39,649 nt of DNA, taken from positions 1 through 39,649 of the forward strand of contig JAJDDT010000100.1 in assembly GCA_029260165.1 (NCBI GenBank). The letters run 5' to 3'. This stretch comes from Phycisphaerae bacterium (GTDB taxonomy: Bacteria > Planctomycetota > Phycisphaerae > UBA1845). The translations under genes and the position numbers were made by a program. This document shows, one piece after another, positions 10,640-31,489 of the stretch (its first letter is position 1; each line of letters starts with the position of its first letter). The notes under the pieces are model-generated. The model was not told the DNA's origin. It saw only the letters and a program-made list of their open reading frames with translations, and made no database searches.

Positions 10640-11415
10640 GATTCGGATGCTCCGAATTCGCGTTGGCGTTTCGATGCGTCGACGGGCAGGCGAACGGTCA
10701 CAGACGCTCCGCTGTTGCGGCGGTCAGCCAGCTCGATGTCACCACCGAGCGCGGTGGCCAGGTCGCGGCAGATGGCGAGTCCCAAGCCTGTACCGCCCGA
10801 TTCGGTTTTGGTGCTGACGAACGGTTCGATGGCGGTGGTAATCTTGTCGCCGAAACCCGGGCCTGTGTCTTCAAACCGAATGGCGATGTCGAGATTGGTG
10901 GCGACGGTCGTAATGGTGAGTGTGCCACCGGTCGGCATGGCGTCGAGCGCGTTGCGAATCAGGTTGGTGCAGATTTGGAACAGCTCCGTGTCATGTGTCG
11001 TGACAACCTGCCCATCGCGGTAGTGTGACGAGATAACCACGCCTGTGCCGGATACCTGATCCTCGAACACGCGGAGGGCTTCCTCGATGATGTGGTTGAC
11101 AGGGACACCGGCGTGTGTGGCAGCGTGCTTGCGTGCGTGTCCCAGCATGTTGCGAGAGACCTCGATGACGCGTTTGACGGCGTCGGAGGCCTGCGACAGG
11201 TGGACGGAGGCATCGTCGATCTGGTGTTCGTCGATGGCGCGTATGGCAAGGTTGATGTATCGGTGTGCGGCGTCGAGGGGGTTGTTGATTTCATGCGCGA
11301 TTCGTCCGACCGTGTCGAGGGTCGCTGCAACCGACGTCTGCGTTGGGTCCGGAACCGCTTGTTTGTGATCTTGCGTTTGCATGTTCATCGTTTGAAACAT
11401 CCACGGATGTCGCAT
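10636..11415 (-). CDS. Soluble NtrB-type sensor histidine kinase
   Basis: A histidine kinase with no membrane segment, so it probably senses a cytoplasmic signal or partner protein. The H box is GRIAHEINNPL with phospho-acceptor His41. The N box is NLIRNALDAM (151-160), G1 is DTGPGFG (183-189) and G2 is GGTGLGL (207-213). There is almost no sequence before the H box, hence no PAS or other sensor domain; this is shorter than NtrB itself. The start is uncertain among ATGs at 11415, 11400 and 11388, none with a strong ribosome site. It is coupled to the sigma-54 regulator by an ATGA overlap, which is its presumed partner. Confidence 0.9.
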   Translation of the reverse strand: MRHPWMFQTMNMQTQDHKQAVPDPTQTSVAATLDTVGRIAHEINNPLDAAHRYINLAIRAIDEHQIDDASVHLSQASDAVKRVIEVSRNMLGHARKHAATHAGVPVNHIIEEALRVFEDQVSGTGVVISSHYRDGQVVTTHDTELFQICTNLIRNALDAMPTGGTLTITTVATNLDIAIRFEDTGPGFGDKITTAIEPFVSTKTESGGTGLGLAICRDLATALGGDIELADRRNSGASVTVRLPVDASKRQREFGASES

Positions 11416-19930: not shown

Positions 19931-22900
19931 TTAAGGCCGCTGATTGTTCATGGATTCACCCTGCCACGCCCTGGTGGCGGTTCCGGTGCCTTGAAGCAGT
20001 TGTCGGAACAGGAACAGGTCAAACGGTGTCAGTGTTCCGTCACGGTTGATGTCCGTGTAGAGCAAACGGTCACCGCAATCCGGACAGGTTCCCGGCGTGC
20101 AGTTGTCGTTGGCGAACGCCCTGAACGCGAACAGATCAACAGGCGAAACGTTGTTGCTCTGGTTGACGTCCAATGGCAGGAATCCGATATCGACGCGGTC
20201 CGGTTCGTTTTCGTCGCCGAGATTGCCGAACGATTCGATCGGTTGTCCTGTCTCGTCGCGGACGTGGGCGATAATGGTCGTCCATTCCTGCAGCGTGATG
20301 GCGCGATCCCATGTGACGCGGACCATATCCATCTGTCCATCGACGTATTCGACAGAGACAATCGTCGGTGGATTGTCGTCGCCGGTTTCGGTGATGGAGA
20401 AATCGCTTGTCAGCAGTGCGCCGTCCGATCCGCTGCCGAAGACCGGCATATTGAAGCGGATGGTGATCGCGTGATCGCCCATGTCGAGGCTTTGCCCGTT
20501 CGAGCTTTCCATGCGCGGGTCGATGTAACCCGAGCAGGGTGCCGCCATGTCGCCGGACTGTCCGGATTCGTGGACGATGTGCAACGGCTCGCTGCAGATA
20601 GTGTCCGCACACGATTGACCCGGAATCGCCAGGGTGCCGCCAATGGACAGGCAAAGGTCGGGCTGTGTGTAGATGCAGTTGCCCTGGGACAGGCAGCACG
20701 GTTGCGTGATGGGCGGACCACAGGTGGCCTGGTGACACGAGGTACCCGGTCCTTGTGGAATTCCTTCCGCCAGTCCGCATTGCAGCGGTGGCAGGTCGGC
20801 GCAATTCCCCAATCCGCCAATGCCCGGAAGACAGCAGGCCTGTGTAGCGCTGCAGTCGTTGGGTTCGCAGAAGTTGCCGTTGCCCAGGGGTGTGCCACCG
20901 TCGCCGAGGCACGCACCGGACGGCACGTTGATGCATCCGTCGTTTGGCAGGCAGCAACCCTGTTCGTCGATGAACGGGCAGAAGATTTCGAAACAGGTGG
21001 TGTTTGGTAATACGGTTCCGCCGTCGGCTTCGCACGCCTGCGGCGGGATGACGCTGCACTGTCCGGTTGGCAGACAGCATGCTCGTTCATCGTCCGTGCA
21101 TGCGACCGAGTCGCATGTCGAGCCGATGCCCTGAGGCTCGCCACCTTCGTTGAGACACGCACCGGGTGGAACGTTGGCACACTGGCTATTGCCGAAGCAA
21201 CAGGCCTGCTCATCGATCACCGGACAGAAATGCAGGAAGCAGGAGAGTCCGCCGGGTGTGCCGCCTTTGGCTTCGCACATTGCGGGTGTCAGGTTGACGC
21301 AGTCGCCGTCAGCGAAGCAGCACGCCTGTACGTCGTCGAGGCACTCGGTTTGCTCGCAGCTCGAGCCGGGTCCCTGCGGGCTGCCGCCAATCGCGAGGCA
21401 GACCGTGAACGGTGTGTCATTGCATTGTCCGTTGTTGTGGCAACAGGCCTGGACCAACGAGATCGGGCAGAACATGGCGAAACAATTCGCACCGGGTCGG
21501 GGAACGCCGCCCTTCAGCTCGCACATTTCAGGCGACAGTTCGACGCACTCGCCGGTGGGCAAACAGCAGGCGGCGTCGTTTGGCTGGCAGGTTGAAATCT
21601 CGCAGAACGTGTTGAATCCCTGCGGGGATCCGCCCAGGTTTTCGCAGACGAACAGCGGAAGATTGGAACAATCACCGTTTTGCAGGCAGCAGGCCTGGAC
21701 GAGTGTGACGACGCAACCATGCGTCTCACAACTGGTTCCGTCACCGCTCGGTACGCCGCCCAACTCCTCGCATTCGGTCACAGGCAGGTCAACACAACCC
21801 AGCGGTCCACCGGGCGTGGGCAGACAGCAGGCTTCGGTGCAGACCTCGCCTGCGTCGCATGTTGGTTGTCCCATTCCGTTGTTGCACGCCCATTCGCCGC
21901 TGGCGCAACACGTTGCACCCTCGAAGCAGTTCGGGTTATCGCCGAATCCGGGCATCTCACGCGGGTCGCAGCAGGATGGACAGATGTCGCCCGGGCCGAT
22001 CTCATGACACGCCTGCATGTTGGGTCCGTTGCATTGCCACTCACCATTTGCACAACACGAGCTGCCGTACGGAAGCAGGCAATGTGGAATGTGTCCGGCC
22101 CCGGGTTGCAGTGCGGGTTCGCAGCACTCGTCACAAACCTCGCCCGGACCAATGTCCTGGCAGGCTTGCATATCAGGTCCATTGCAATGCCACTCGCCGT
22201 TCGCACAACACGAGCTGCCATAGGGCAGGAGGCAGTGTGGGATGTGTCCGGCACCGGGTTGCAGTGCCGGTTCGCAGCACTGGTCACAAACCTCGCCGAC
22301 TCCGATGCCACCGCAGGCTTGCATGCCGGGTCCGTTGCATGCCCATTGTCCGTTGGCGCAGCAGGTCGCGCCTTCGAAGCAAGGCGGGTTGTTCCCGGTT
22401 CCCGGTTCCAACGCGGGATCACAACAGTCGATAATCCCGCAGGTGGCCGTCGCACAGGTGGATCCTTCACCCTGTGGCTCGCCGCCGATATTCGCGCACG
22501 AGTGCGGACCTTGATCGAGACAGAAATCAATTCCCAGACAGCACGCTTGCGGCGGCGTGACCGTGCAGAAAACCAGCGAACAATCCGGTCCGCTCGGCAT
22601 GCCACCGCGGATCAGACACGCCTGGCCTGGGAGATTTTCGCAGATGCCCGTTTCGAAACAGCACGCCTGCGTCGGCTGGGCGCAGTCGGCGTTCTCGCAC
22701 GTCGAGCCTAGACCCTGAGGCAGCCCATCCTGAACAAGGCAATCTCCTCTTGGAATCACTTCGCACCCACCGTTGGCGAGGCAGCACGCCTCGACAACGG
22801 GGAAGAAGCAACCAGCAAACGGGCAGGATGTCCCCGGTGGTAACGGGTCACCGCCTTGTGCGGTGCAGTCGTCGGCGGGCAGAACCACGCAGAGATCAGG

Positions 22901-24715
22901 TCCCAGACAGCAGGCCCCTGGCTGTGCGTCGCACGAAATGTTGTTGCAGGTTGATCCCGGTCCCTGGGGCATGCCGCCCTGTATCTGACACACCGTTCGA
23001 GGCAGCATATCGCAAACTCCTTCAGGGCTGCAGCACGCCTCCAATGTGGGTTCAAAACAACCGGCAAACGGGCAGGTCATTCCAGGCGGTAATGGTGCGC
23101 CACCCTGGCCGAGACACTCCTGCGGGGAAAGGATCACGCACAATTCAGCACTAAGGCAACAGGCGCGGTTTTCAATCGGACATACGACGTCATCGCACGT
23201 TGATCCCTGGGGTTGGGGCGTACCACCCTGTGCGCCGCAGATGGCGGGCAACGTAAACGTGCAGCCACCGTCCGGCAGGCAGCACGCGCGGAACAGTGGT
23301 GGGAAACAGGACGCATCATCGCACGACGATCCCATTCCCTGCGGCTGACCACCCTGTTGATGGCACACGCGAATCGGCAGGTCGGCACAGACGGCTGCGT
23401 TGGCAAAACAGCACGCCTGGGACACTTCCGTGCAGTCGGTTGTTTCGCATCTGGTCGCCTGACCCTGCGGAACACCGCCCTGCGCACCGCAGATGGCGGG
23501 TCGCGTATCGACGCAATCGCCCGACGGCAGACAACAGGCCTCGTCAAACGTCAGGAAGCAACTCTCCAAATCACAGTTGGTGTTGGGACCCTGCGGGGAA
23601 CCGCCTTCAGCCACGCAGACATCGAACGACAAATCAATGCACTCGTCATTCGGGAGGCAACAGGCTTGAATCGCCGGTTCGCACGCCGCGATCTCGCAAC
23701 TTGATCCCGGTCCCTGCGGTTTTCCGCCCACGCTCTTGCAAATCGATCCCGGAAGCGGGGCACAAAGCCCGTTGGCAAGACAGCACGCCTCGAAAAGGAC
23801 CACGCCGCAAACCTGATTATCGCAACTCGCATTTGGTCGTGGGACACCGCCTTCCAGCAGACAAACACCCGGCAACAGATCGGCACAAACACCGTCGCTG
23901 AAACAACAGGCGGTCGTCTCAGTCACGCAGTTGCTGTTGGCGCACGTTGTTCCGATTCCCTGAGGGGTTCCACCCTGGGCACCGCAGATCGGCGGGATCG
24001 TCATGACGCAACCCCCGTTATCGAGGCAACATGCCTGGGCCGGACTGACGAAACAACCGTCGGCCATGCAGTTCGTGTTGGGCCCTTGCGGAGCGCCATC
24101 GAGTTCATGGCATTCCATCGGCGTCACGTCCGCACAACCGTCGTTCGGCAGACAACAAGCCTGTGCCTGCGGAATGCAGAAGATGGAGTTGCAACCGAGC
24201 CCATTGTTTGACACCGCGCCCCCCATGGCGATGCAAACCTCGGGATTCAACTCACGACACTCACCGTTTGGCAGGCAACAGGCTGGGGGAATGGGTGGGT
24301 GGCAAATCGCGTTACCACATGTTGTATCCGGACCAGCCGACTGACCGTTGAGAATGTCACACAGTTGCACGGGCACATCGACACACATGCCGGATTCGAG
24401 ACAACAGGCACCGGTCGGCCCGATGATCACACAATGGTTGTTGATACAGGCAGCCCCCGGTGTTCCGGACGAACCGCCCTGTGCTTCACATTCATCCGGC
24501 GGCAATTGGGTGCAAAACCCGCTCGGCAGGCAACATGGGGGCGGTCCGTCGCCGGTTTGTTCGATCTGAACGTCGGCGTTTGCGACAGAACCCTGGACCG
24601 CGACAGGATTGTCTGCGACGCTGTCCCCGTTGTCTTGTGATTGCGCGAACAGCGCTGACGAACATGTGATGGCTGCCAGTGCGGCGATCAGTCTTGTCGA
24701 GAGGTTTCGGTTCAT
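19931..24715 (-). CDS. Giant secreted cysteine-rich repeat protein with dockerin-like C-terminus
   Basis: A 1594-residue exported protein starting with a signal peptide (LIAALAAITCSSALFAQS). I count about 27 repeats of 38-45 residues of the form ACC-LPNG-C, P-C, GG-PQG, C, C, each with six cysteines (type A). Near 21835-22432 they are interrupted by four repeats of another kind (type B: CCEPALQPG, SSCCANGEW, CNGPMQAC). The last 220 residues hold a beta-rich domain (about 20180-20560) and then a dockerin-like pair of calcium loops, DVNQSNNVSPVD and DINRDGTLTPFD. Dockerin-like pairs are common at the ends of planctomycete surface proteins. The cysteines imply a disulphide-stabilised rod. AGGAG lies nine bases before the ATG. 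Function unknown; surface or adhesive structure is a guess. Confidence 0.9.
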   Translation of the reverse strand: MNRNLSTRLIAALAAITCSSALFAQSQDNGDSVADNPVAVQGSVANADVQIEQTGDGPPPCCLPSGFCTQLPPDECEAQGGSSGTPGAACINNHCVIIGPTGACCLESGMCVDVPVQLCDILNGQSAGPDTTCGNAICHPPIPPACCLPNGECRELNPEVCIAMGGAVSNNGLGCNSIFCIPQAQACCLPNDGCADVTPMECHELDGAPQGPNTNCMADGCFVSPAQACCLDNGGCVMTIPPICGAQGGTPQGIGTTCANSNCVTETTACCFSDGVCADLLPGVCLLEGGVPRPNASCDNQVCGVVLFEACCLANGLCAPLPGSICKSVGGKPQGPGSSCEIAACEPAIQACCLPNDECIDLSFDVCVAEGGSPQGPNTNCDLESCFLTFDEACCLPSGDCVDTRPAICGAQGGVPQGQATRCETTDCTEVSQACCFANAAVCADLPIRVCHQQGGQPQGMGSSCDDASCFPPLFRACCLPDGGCTFTLPAICGAQGGTPQPQGSTCDDVVCPIENRACCLSAELCVILSPQECLGQGGAPLPPGMTCPFAGCFEPTLEACCSPEGVCDMLPRTVCQIQGGMPQGPGSTCNNISCDAQPGACCLGPDLCVVLPADDCTAQGGDPLPPGTSCPFAGCFFPVVEACCLANGGCEVIPRGDCLVQDGLPQGLGSTCENADCAQPTQACCFETGICENLPGQACLIRGGMPSGPDCSLVFCTVTPPQACCLGIDFCLDQGPHSCANIGGEPQGEGSTCATATCGIIDCCDPALEPGTGNNPPCFEGATCCANGQWACNGPGMQACGGIGVGEVCDQCCEPALQPGAGHIPHCLLPYGSSCCANGEWHCNGPDMQACQDIGPGEVCDECCEPALQPGAGHIPHCLLPYGSSCCANGEWQCNGPNMQACHEIGPGDICPSCCDPREMPGFGDNPNCFEGATCCASGEWACNNGMGQPTCDAGEVCTEACCLPTPGGPLGCVDLPVTECEELGGVPSGDGTSCETHGCVVTLVQACCLQNGDCSNLPLFVCENLGGSPQGFNTFCEISTCQPNDAACCLPTGECVELSPEMCELKGGVPRPGANCFAMFCPISLVQACCHNNGQCNDTPFTVCLAIGGSPQGPGSSCEQTECLDDVQACCFADGDCVNLTPAMCEAKGGTPGGLSCFLHFCPVIDEQACCFGNSQCANVPPGACLNEGGEPQGIGSTCDSVACTDDERACCLPTGQCSVIPPQACEADGGTVLPNTTCFEIFCPFIDEQGCCLPNDGCINVPSGACLGDGGTPLGNGNFCEPNDCSATQACCLPGIGGLGNCADLPPLQCGLAEGIPQGPGTSCHQATCGPPITQPCCLSQGNCIYTQPDLCLSIGGTLAIPGQSCADTICSEPLHIVHESGQSGDMAAPCSGYIDPRMESSNGQSLDMGDHAITIRFNMPVFGSGSDGALLTSDFSITETGDDNPPTIVSVEYVDGQMDMVRVTWDRAITLQEWTTIIAHVRDETGQPIESFGNLGDENEPDRVDIGFLPLDVNQSNNVSPVDLFAFRAFANDNCTPGTCPDCGDRLLYTDINRDGTLTPFDLFLFRQLLQGTGTATRAWQGESMNNQRP
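21835..22432 (-). repeat. Type B repeat block within the Cys-rich protein gene
   Basis: Four units of about 50 codons. The two central ones are almost identical in protein and close in DNA (GAGHIPHCLLPYGSSCCANG in both). The outer two are diverged (EGATCCANGQW, EGATCCASGEW). This indicates recent duplication of one unit. Confidence 0.8.
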
Positions 24716-27943: not shown

Positions 27944-28030
27944 CGGAGCGGGAGGGATTCGAACCCTCGGTGCAGTTACCCGCACACCGCATTTCCAATG
28001 CGGACCCTTCAGCCGCTCGGACACCGCTCC
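27944..28030 (-). tRNA. tRNA-Ser (anticodon GGA)
   Basis: The 87 bases fold as a class II tRNA. The acceptor arm is GGAGCGG/CCGCTCC and the D arm contains GAGCGGCTGAAGG. The anticodon arm is CCGCA-TTGGAAA-TGCGG with anticodon GGA at 27994-27996, reading UCC and UCU. The long variable arm (GTGC/GCAC) is typical of serine, and the T arm is GAGGGTTCGAATCCCTC. The discriminator is G, as serine identity requires. CCA is not encoded. TTTTT follows directly and probably ends transcription. Confidence 0.96.
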
Positions 28031-29624: not shown

Positions 29625-30269
29625 TTACTTACTGGAATGTCCTGGTGACGCGTCAACTTCCAACTCGCGGCACAATTTGGCGAATGAACTTGAGCGGCTG
29701 CGGACCGCCTCCAGGTCAATCCTCGCGGAAAGACGCGGCTGGTCGACGGTCTCGCTGTATCGCCCATGTATTCTTTTTTCGATCCACGATTTGCCCGAAC
29801 GACTCAACTCGGGATTCTGGATGACTGACGCACTGACATTGTGGACGTCCAGTATGTCACCCAAAGAATCAGCTGATGCAACGAACCACGATTCGTATTC
29901 AATGACTGGCAGCACGAGTGCTATTCTATTCGCCGCCGAATCAGCAATAACATTTTGAATGCGCGGCGCAACCTCCATTGGACAGTCCTCATCCGCGTCA
30001 AGCAAGAATAGAATCAGGCCGGCTCCTTCCAATGGATCGTTTTGCAGTTTTGAATCCGCCAGCCGGACCGCTCGCGTGATTTCATCCTTGTCCAGCTCAA
30101 GCCCACGCGCCGAATGGCGAATGAATTTTGATCGAGGGCGTCGGATTGGTCGAAGTACATGGATGAATTCCTGCCCCAATAGCTCGCGCCAGATTCTATC
30201 GAGAAGAACTCGTATTGCTGCGACCTCGCCATGACCTTCTACAATGGGAGCAACACGAAGGCACGTCAT
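29625..30269 (-). CDS. DUF4276 (TOPRIM-like) protein, partner of the AAA ATPase
   Basis: A 214-residue DUF4276 protein. Two acidic motifs fit a TOPRIM nuclease/primase-like fold: VEGHGE at 10-15 and LLDADED with Asp91, Asp93 and Asp95. PVIEYESWF at 121-129 is also typical of the family. Its ATG overlaps the ATPase stop (ATGA at 30266-30269), so the two proteins are made together. OLD-family nucleases combine the same ATPase and TOPRIM parts in one chain; here they are separate. A defence role is an inference. Codon third positions are visibly more A+T-rich than in neighbouring genes, suggesting transfer. Confidence 0.85.
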   Translation of the reverse strand: MTCLRVAPIVEGHGEVAAIRVLLDRIWRELLGQEFIHVLRPIRRPRSKFIRHSARGLELDKDEITRAVRLADSKLQNDPLEGAGLILFLLDADEDCPMEVAPRIQNVIADSAANRIALVLPVIEYESWFVASADSLGDILDVHNVSASVIQNPELSRSGKSWIEKRIHGRYSETVDQPRLSARIDLEAVRSRSSSFAKLCRELEVDASPGHSSK

Positions 30270-31489
30270 TTTCGTTCGTCCATTTCAACAAAAAGGCGAT
30301 ATTGCCCGTTTTCTTCGATCTGAGTTTTGTTGGTTTGCAACTGGTCCATTCGCAGAAGTTCGCCTGGCGAGTACAATTTCTGTTTTACGGCTGCGACACT
30401 GGCGGCGTCGAGTTCTGATATGAGGCTTTCGCCTTCGTGCTGATCGACGACCAGGAGGCAGTCATCCTCCAGCCGAACATGGTCCAGCAAGTCGGGACTG
30501 TGCGTCGTCACAACGATCTGAGTGCTGCTCGTCGCTTCACGCAATGCGTCCATTAGCGCACCGGTCGCGGCGGGATGCAATGCTGTCTCGGGCTCTTCGA
30601 TTCCGACTAATCTTACAGGGCTTTTTCGATCCACGAGTTGCGACACCGCGACAAGTGCCCCCAGCGCACGAAGCGTCCCATCAGACATGCTTGCCGCATA
30701 GAATCGCCAGGGATGCTTTGCTCCTTTGACATTCTGCCGAAACAGAAGTGTTTCTTTCGGGCCCAACGGAATTCGTTCAACACTTGCCACGCTTGGGACA
30801 ATTGTCGTGAGGAACTCGGTTATTCTGGTAAATCGATGTGGGTCATCGGCGGAGATACGAGCGATAACGCTTGATAAGTTGCGACCGTCAGGGTCTAGCA
30901 GTTGGCCGGCATCAGGACTTTGTAACTCCTTCATACTCTCTGGGTTTAGACAGTAGAAGCCCATCGACTTGAGCACATCGTAACACGGCCGAAACTCCTC
31001 GAAGCCGGAAGCCAGGACCAAAAACAGCCGGTCGATCTGGGGTCTGGGCAACGCGCGGGGGAGTGATCTCGTGATTTCGCCTCTTTCAACATGATAGAAA
31101 GCGACGGGGACATTTTGTGCGTCTGTGACTCGCAGTTGTTCCCGCTTTACCTCAAATCCCCCCTTTTCTTTCGCGGCAATCTCAAATCCATATAGGGCAG
31201 AATGTCTCCCGGGAAGCGTAAGTTCCAGTTGAATTGCGAAGTTGTGTGGATGCCCCGTACTTCGGCGTCGGACGACGTCAATGCCGCCTCGCGATTTGAT
31301 TGCGTAATCCAATGAGGTCTTGAGGCCCTCGGCGACGAATTCGAGTGCGTCGAGGAAGTTGCTTTTTCCGGCACCGTTGCGCCCCACGAGGACCGTAAGA
31401 TCAGCCAGATTCGTGACGCACTTACCAATGCTTTTGTAATTTCGAATTACCAGTCGGTTAATTCGTGGCCGATCATTATCGTGGGACAT
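30266..31489 (-). CDS. RecF/OLD-like AAA ATPase
   Basis: An ABC-type ATPase of 407 residues. Walker A is GRNGAGKSN (36-44), the signature-like motif SMSDGTLR is at 267-274, Walker B is LVGIEEPETALHP (294-306), and the H-loop is His330 in TTHSP. The short core with no long coiled coil fits the AAA_21/AAA_15 ATPases of defence systems rather than SMC or RecF itself. The ATG at 31489 is chosen by homology to the family start (NRLVIRNYKSIG); the frame is open to 31660, but that stretch overlaps the aldehyde dehydrogenase. It lies 40 bases after that gene's stop and is coupled to DUF4276. Confidence 0.9.
   Translation of the reverse strand: MSHDNDRPRINRLVIRNYKSIGKCVTNLADLTVLVGRNGAGKSNFLDALEFVAEGLKTSLDYAIKSRGGIDVVRRRSTGHPHNFAIQLELTLPGRHSALYGFEIAAKEKGGFEVKREQLRVTDAQNVPVAFYHVERGEITRSLPRALPRPQIDRLFLVLASGFEEFRPCYDVLKSMGFYCLNPESMKELQSPDAGQLLDPDGRNLSSVIARISADDPHRFTRITEFLTTIVPSVASVERIPLGPKETLLFRQNVKGAKHPWRFYAASMSDGTLRALGALVAVSQLVDRKSPVRLVGIEEPETALHPAATGALMDALREATSSTQIVVTTHSPDLLDHVRLEDDCLLVVDQHEGESLISELDAASVAAVKQKLYSPGELLRMDQLQTNKTQIEENGQYRLFVEMDERK

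Follow-up and report, generated by a model that had tools for sequence, protein, structure and literature searches.

The two overlapping minus-strand genes located at 29625-31489 of the window (the whole 39,649-nucleotide stretch of Phycisphaerae bacterium DNA that was analysed) are a further member of HEC-01, a catalogued candidate defence system, and do not form a new module. We consider it probable that the pair is a horizontally acquired, two-gene anti-phage module of this family, in which an ABC ATPase would gate a two-metal TOPRIM nuclease encoded by the DUF4276 gene. The computations show that both genes are intact and inherited together, that they match HEC-01, that the second protein has a layout and active-site positions of the TOPRIM type, and that the pair stands as an insertion amid ordinary genes. 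The initial annotation had proposed a candidate defence module made of a split, OLD-like ATPase/TOPRIM pair; the split OLD-like character stands, but the module is already catalogued as HEC-01 and is not new.

Membership derives from the HEC-01 profiles of PADLOC-DB 2.0.0, where HEC stands for 'Hma-embedded candidate'. They match the ATPase (HEC-01A, PDLC04178, E 6.2e-148, residues 5-400 of 407) as well as the DUF4276 protein (HEC-01B, PDLC04196, E 7.1e-54, residues 1-205 of 214). The genes also adjoin, with a four-base overlap on the same strand, which we take to be what the HEC-01 rule demands. According to the excerpt of PMC12988326, the Hma-embedded candidates come from a guilt-by-embedding study and several of them are active in experiments, HEC-06 but not HEC-01 being named there. 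HEC-01 is listed among gut Desulfovibrio systems in the excerpted part of a DefenseFinder analysis (PMC12724379). Within the excerpts retrieved by our literature search, HEC-01 as the name of a defence system was found only in this study, which is on D. piger, and the search found no paper mentioning DUF4276.

The HEC-01A-type ABC ATPase gene (30266..31489, minus strand, 407 aa) runs intact from an ATG at 31489 to a stop at 30266, and the HEC-01B-type DUF4276 gene (29625..30269, minus strand, 214 aa), equally intact, from an ATG at 30269 to a stop at 29625. Their reading frames share an ATGA stop/start overlap at 30266..30269 of the minus strand, the overlap that the initial annotation had described, and the two genes are likely translationally coupled through it. 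A GGAAGG lies ten bases upstream of the ATPase start on the ATPase strand. Promoter and terminator scans stayed at or below the shuffled level. The claimed difference in base composition is also borne out: the GC content is 0.527 and 0.530 in the pair, whereas the window as a whole has 0.58 and the two flanking genes have 0.59 and 0.60. At third positions the pair has a GC of 0.53 and 0.55, and six other window genes have 0.63-0.76.

Concerning the surroundings, Pfam and PADLOC were run on ten further window genes, located between 24915 and 38353. Seven of these receive a Pfam family (tRNA-binding, phosphomannose isomerase, DinB, PilZ, aldehyde dehydrogenase, FAD oxidoreductase and SpoIIE) and the other three none; PilZ and aldehyde dehydrogenase are the genes adjoining the pair. 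PADLOC leaves nine of the ten without a match, the only one being that of residues 10-87 of the FAD oxidoreductase to a desaturase model (E 9e-14), taken as a common FAD-binding motif. Neither a clear defence gene nor a mobile-element family was found among these ten genes, in agreement with the earlier description of a pair set amid housekeeping-like genes. A tRNA-Ser gene (GGA) lies at 27944-28030 on the minus strand, about 1.6 kb from the pair; it was set aside as an attachment site because the DinB and PilZ genes stand in between. The window also holds, at 19931-24715 on the minus strand, a 1594-residue open frame with many cysteine-rich repeats of the form ACCL..G.C.

In the ATPase, Pfam recognises AAA_21 (E 2.9e-30) and AAA_15 (E 8.2e-21), both above their cut-offs. 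We take GRNGAGKS at 36-43 to be the Walker A motif, SMSDGTLR the signature, GIEEPE the Walker B and TTHSP the H-switch. G36, G41, K42, S43, S269 and G271 are identical in 66/66 aligned rows. The Walker and signature motifs noted earlier can be read in the translation, as can the acidic TOPRIM-like residues of the second protein. A C-terminal segment, G376-E377-L378-L379-R380, is kept in 55-64 of the 66 rows depending on the position; that it serves in docking is conjecture. The predicted structure (pLDDT 94.6) resembles SMC, Rad50 and PtuA heads (Z 19-23), and by sequence the closest solved structure is the OLD-family protein 6p74 (E 4.8e-20), followed by PtuA, a retron ATPase and GajA. The protein is a putative sensor and regulator with an SMC/Rad50/PtuA-like head. 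The alignments behind the structure models contain 66 (ATPase) and 65 (DUF4276) relatives, hand-picked from 80 loci.

Pfam assigns the second protein to DUF4276 (PF14103, E 4e-14, 53.7 bits, cut-off 30.2), and no solved structure is related to it by sequence at E <= 10. The protein carries E11, E15, D91, D93, E124, E126 and K160. In its predicted structure (pLDDT 93.9, pTM 0.90) E11 directly follows the strand 4-10 and D91/D93 follow the strand 83-89, which is the TOPRIM layout, and the model therefore presents the arrangement of an OLD-type active site, i.e. a Glu after one strand and a DxD after a later one. Whereas a DUF4276 fold without a TOPRIM active site would have spoken against the initial annotation, the predicted fold has the TOPRIM-type arrangement of acidic residues. 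The active site of BpOLD consists of E400, E404, D455, D457, T506, E508 and K562 (PMC6755086, in excerpt), where changing one residue at a time had no visible effect, and the spacing suggests that E11, E15, D91, D93, E124/E126 and K160 are the counterparts of these residues.

With the DUF4276 model as query, Foldseek against the PDB gave nothing at E <= 0.001, with Argonaute MID domains top-ranked. VIA-align, where rows within 1 of each other count as tied, put the hypothetical protein PH0156 first (Z 8.7), followed by the OLD C-terminal region 6nk8 (Z 8.5, rmsd 4.2, 161 residues), an Argonaute MID domain (Z 8.2, tied with OLD) and OLD 6njv (Z 8.1), and further down GajA 8jqb (Z 6.5) and the PARIS chain 8ux9_A (Z 6.2), which was taken as AriB because 8ux9_B is named AriA and the length differs. 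Since the MID and OLD scores are tied, the fold alone does not settle the TOPRIM assignment. The first aligned pairs are 3-392 for BpOLD, 4-372 for GajA and 2-17 for AriB; if the alignments are ungapped, E11 would fall on BpOLD E400, GajA E379 and AriB E26, which the excerpted sources describe as active-site glutamates or dead-mutant positions (PMC6755086, PMC10781630, PMC12409363).

Profile comparison adds to this picture. Between the DUF4276 profile and the OLD TOPRIM, hhalign gave 95.5% over 180 columns with 22 motif-filtered OLD rows and 86.6% over 62 columns with 25 unfiltered ones, aligning the VEGxxE and DxD of DUF4276 with the VEGxxE and DxD of OLD. A more diverse, profile-found DUF4276 set gave 79.5% (over just 23 columns) and 75.8% (over 70), and controls against the ATPase profile gave 0.2% for both sets. 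The OLD TOPRIM rows come from genomes of the window's phylum, 28/31 matches having been taken; the other three were left out, two for weakness and one for lack of a locus, and the motif filter kept 22 and the unfiltered run 25. PIVEGHGE was among the exact peptide patterns by which the 80 pattern-found loci were retrieved, so that invariance at residues 8-15 among these loci is partly circular. The profile-found set stems from a profile or protein search and comprises 33 of 34 rows (L001 gave no match), with L007, L010 and L035 lying on the same contigs as pattern-found loci. With gaps counted as lost, these 33 rows keep E11 in 26, D91 in 27, D93 in 25, E124 in 24, E126 in 28 and K160 in 24; at position 15, 12 rows have Glu and 11 have Asp.

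Taken together, the model layout, the structural matches to OLD, GajA and PARIS, the OLD profile comparison and the kept acidic positions support, without proving, the reading of DUF4276 as a putative TOPRIM two-metal nuclease. An Argonaute MID-like function was rejected despite the structural tie, because the acidic positions and the OLD profile match favour TOPRIM. A more speculative idea, which we would hold only tentatively, is that DUF4276 forms a TOPRIM branch of its own, in which a Glu-x-Glu-x-Trp replaces the Thr-x-Glu of class 2 OLD at the second metal and which the ATPase gates in trans via the G-E-L-L-R segment; the split form would then be no broken OLD but a transferable immune unit able to stand alone, with a trigger and a substrate of its own.

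To characterize co-inheritance, the best 80 of 90 pattern-found loci were compared. An ATPase match lies directly upstream of the DUF4276 gene on the same strand in 75 of these 80 relatives, a count that includes L049 (C-terminal remnant only) and L061 (frameshift), and such recurrence of adjacency and order indicates that the pairing is not due to chance. The gap between the two genes ranges from -11 to +12 bases in 73 of the 75, and the -4 arrangement is possible in 49/75 when the start codon nearest to the ATPase stop is used. In these 75 relatives a stop codon closes the ATPase frame close to where DUF4276 starts, and no natural fusion of the two was recognised among the loci looked at. 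Among the five relatives lacking an upstream ATPase, L063 and L091 begin at a contig end, L082 has an upstream frame read as transposase-like, L083 is read as keeping an ATPase C-terminal remnant upstream, and L097 has a shortened DUF4276 frame; in L049 the remnant precedes a full-length DUF4276 frame. Distances between ATPases correlate with those between DUF4276 proteins (r 0.54, permutation maximum 0.18, 59 rows), a value from which shared ancestry was not removed. In one relative (L051:7523-9989) a single DUF4276 gene has two related ATPase genes in tandem upstream, 45% and 57% identical to the window ATPase.

The distribution of the family is wide and patchy. HEC-01B matches occur in 37/392 genomes of the phylum sample and relatives of the window DUF4276 in 7/61 genomes of the order, the own genome being included in both counts, and they are absent from 13/13 other genomes of the same family searched. 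Relatives bear 12 phylum labels, and the ATPase tree requires 28 phylum changes, between the minimum of 11 and the shuffled mean of 43, so that labels are clustered yet mixed; bin contamination may add to this mixing, the near-identical L064 and L067 bearing different phylum names. In G413, a genome of the same genus, blastn finds the two genes that flank the pair, PilZ and aldehyde dehydrogenase, next to each other, their aligned parts lying 59 bp apart as against 1,955 bp in the window; the segment 29576..31530 (no strand assigned) is the one without counterpart and an inferred insertion. Given this empty site and the absence from the 13/13 same-family genomes, the simple reading is that the pair was acquired by a lone insertion among ordinary genes. 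No convincing flanking repeats were found at the insertion edges, those present looking like short chance matches. Relatives occur in 3 of 72,556 plasmids, all of Streptomyces, and in 1 phage record of 50,697; among viral contigs 4 stretches matched the pattern and 0 were relatives.

It should be noted that the same genome (G000) holds a second, divergent HEC-01 pair on contig C97 (L001:1471-3262, minus strand; HEC-01A E 3.2e-130, HEC-01B E 3.9e-56), for which an empty site is unreadable, its two flanking genes matching different G413 contigs. On contig C49 of this genome, an OLD-like TOPRIM domain (L182, match 11073-11285) lies in a 634-residue open frame, and fused-type and split forms may thus coexist in it.

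The neighbourhoods of relatives are mixed, some pairs being embedded in defence loci and others standing alone like that of the window. PADLOC families at E <= 1e-10 amount to 160 beside relatives and 31 further out (108 and 107 proteins, 27 loci), which is only a rough sign, as the counts are of families, many of them overlapping, and not of proteins. Of 37 long-flanked loci 27 made up the sample, the ones dropped being L049 and nine whose proteins were long; L054 and L059 (copies) and L061 (frameshift) had been set aside beforehand, and one protein already in the near set was excluded from the far one. Ten neighbours of relatives, picked by size and position and not randomly, were submitted to PADLOC, and nine matched, one in L113 matching nothing. 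HmaC-like genes adjoin L055, L096 and L112; a type III methyltransferase adjoins L062, L071 and L113, with a DrmD-like helicase in L062; and on a Streptomyces plasmid (L160:6751-13563) an HEC-01-like pair lies beside Gabija GajA/GajB. Consistently non-defence contexts would have counted against the initial annotation, and the homologues do not show them. Among the genes near relatives, Pfam also recognises many ordinary ones (tRNA synthetases, aminotransferases, transporters), and PADLOC matched 0/8 frames tested, three near the C97 pair and five near the best same-order relative, L157. All neighbour genes were predicted with a simple longest-frame caller, so that false frames may be among them, also near the C97 pair and L157.

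How the module might work can be outlined from its relatives, with OLD and GajA as mechanistic precedents, by analogy, for an ATPase-gated nuclease. The ABC ATPase probably assembles into an ATP-bound oligomer that senses infection and would hold the DUF4276 TOPRIM nuclease inactive. Upon a phage cue it would license, free or position the nuclease, whose OLD-type two-metal site would then cut nucleic acid, the target being either DNA, of the phage or of the host, or tRNA, the substrate in PARIS. Cutting would stop the infection, possibly at the cell's cost. The complex and its gating, the nuclease activity and its substrate, the trigger and the protection are accordingly all putative. For PARIS, the precedent, neither gene and neither active site is dispensable according to the excerpt of PMC9122126.

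A narrower version of this explanation follows PARIS closely: the ATPase guard would sense a phage anti-restriction protein and free the TOPRIM subunit, which would cleave host tRNA and arrest the cell. The two systems have the same ABC ATPase/TOPRIM split over two genes, the AriA profile matches the ATPase (E 6.9e-31), chain 8ux9_A aligns to the DUF4276 model (Z 6.2), and AriB is described, in excerpt, as a two-metal tRNA nuclease (PMC12409363). However, the second protein is DUF4276 and not DUF4435, the ATPase fits the HEC-01A models far better than those of AriA, and OLD C-terminal regions reach a higher structural score (6nk8, Z 8.5 vs 6.2), and we regard so specific a mechanism as clearly less likely than not.

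Alternatively, the pair could be a DNA repair or cell-cycle ATPase-nuclease with no defence role, like the archaeal OLD protein Cran1, which shows, in the excerpted source, that OLD relatives can be housekeeping (PMC12796447); the solitary position among ordinary genes and the similarity of the ATPase fold to Rad50 and SMC heads would suit it. Yet the patchy occurrence, with no relative in 13/13 other same-family genomes searched, makes such a role less likely, and the lower GC, the empty site in the same genus, the loss or decay of the ATPase next to certain relatives (L049, L083, L097), the plasmid settings and the HmaC-like or Gabija neighbours also stand against it, so that we regard it as unlikely. 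Less likely still in our estimate is a toxin-antitoxin or plasmid-maintenance pair, in which the ATPase restrains a nuclease toxin and the element is thereby retained in the cell. Two overlapping genes of scattered occurrence, with relatives on three Streptomyces plasmids, speak for it, but the full-length DUF4276 with a mere ATPase remnant in L049 argues against toxicity of the partner-less protein, and single deletions of PARIS are non-toxic according to the excerpt of PMC9122126. The HEC-01-type anti-phage module is thus the reading we prefer.

Taken as a single locus, the pair adds a further example to an already catalogued candidate system. Its useful contributions are its solitary position as an insertion and the evidence from sequence, fold and active site that DUF4276, in Pfam a domain of unknown function, is a TOPRIM relative; residues for mutation are now named in the protein. 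Copies standing alone, as this one does, could be missed by searches based on defence neighbourhoods.

Compared with known systems, the pair resembles OLD proteins of class 1 and 2 (P2 Old, TsOLD, BpOLD, GajA) in combining an ABC ATPase with a TOPRIM having the E..E, the DxD, a later acidic pair and a lysine; judging from spacing, E124/E126 would occupy the place of BpOLD T506/E508. It differs in having two polypeptides instead of one and no helicase adjoining it, and the fusion of ATPase and TOPRIM that characterises OLD classes 1-3 is replaced here by two separate frames. Concerning Gabija, no GajB match was found among the ten window genes, the adjoining ones being PilZ and aldehyde dehydrogenase. 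PARIS (AriA/AriB, class 4 OLD) likewise has ATPase and TOPRIM on separate adjoining genes, but AriB is DUF4435 (PF14491); the window protein shows no DUF4435 match, Pfam at E <= 1 giving only DUF4276 and a below-cut-off Phage_C. The AriA profile is far weaker on the ATPase than HEC-01A (E 6.9e-31 vs 6.2e-148), AAA_21/AAA_15 being common to both. An assignment as fused OLD or PARIS was accordingly rejected, given the separate frames and a second protein that is DUF4276 and not DUF4435.

MADS Mad3 (E 1.2e-24), PDC-M07A (E 3.9e-34) and the PtuA of Septu and retrons (structures with Z about 19-22) have related ABC ATPases, but all score far below HEC-01A, and the NCBIfam MADS3 model gives the ATPase 112.9 bits, short of the cut-off of 420 for Mad3. 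From HEC-01 itself the window pair differs in standing alone, with no Hma or other clear defence gene among the ten scanned window genes, and it shares with HEC-01 strong matches to both the A and B profiles and the adjacency of the two genes.
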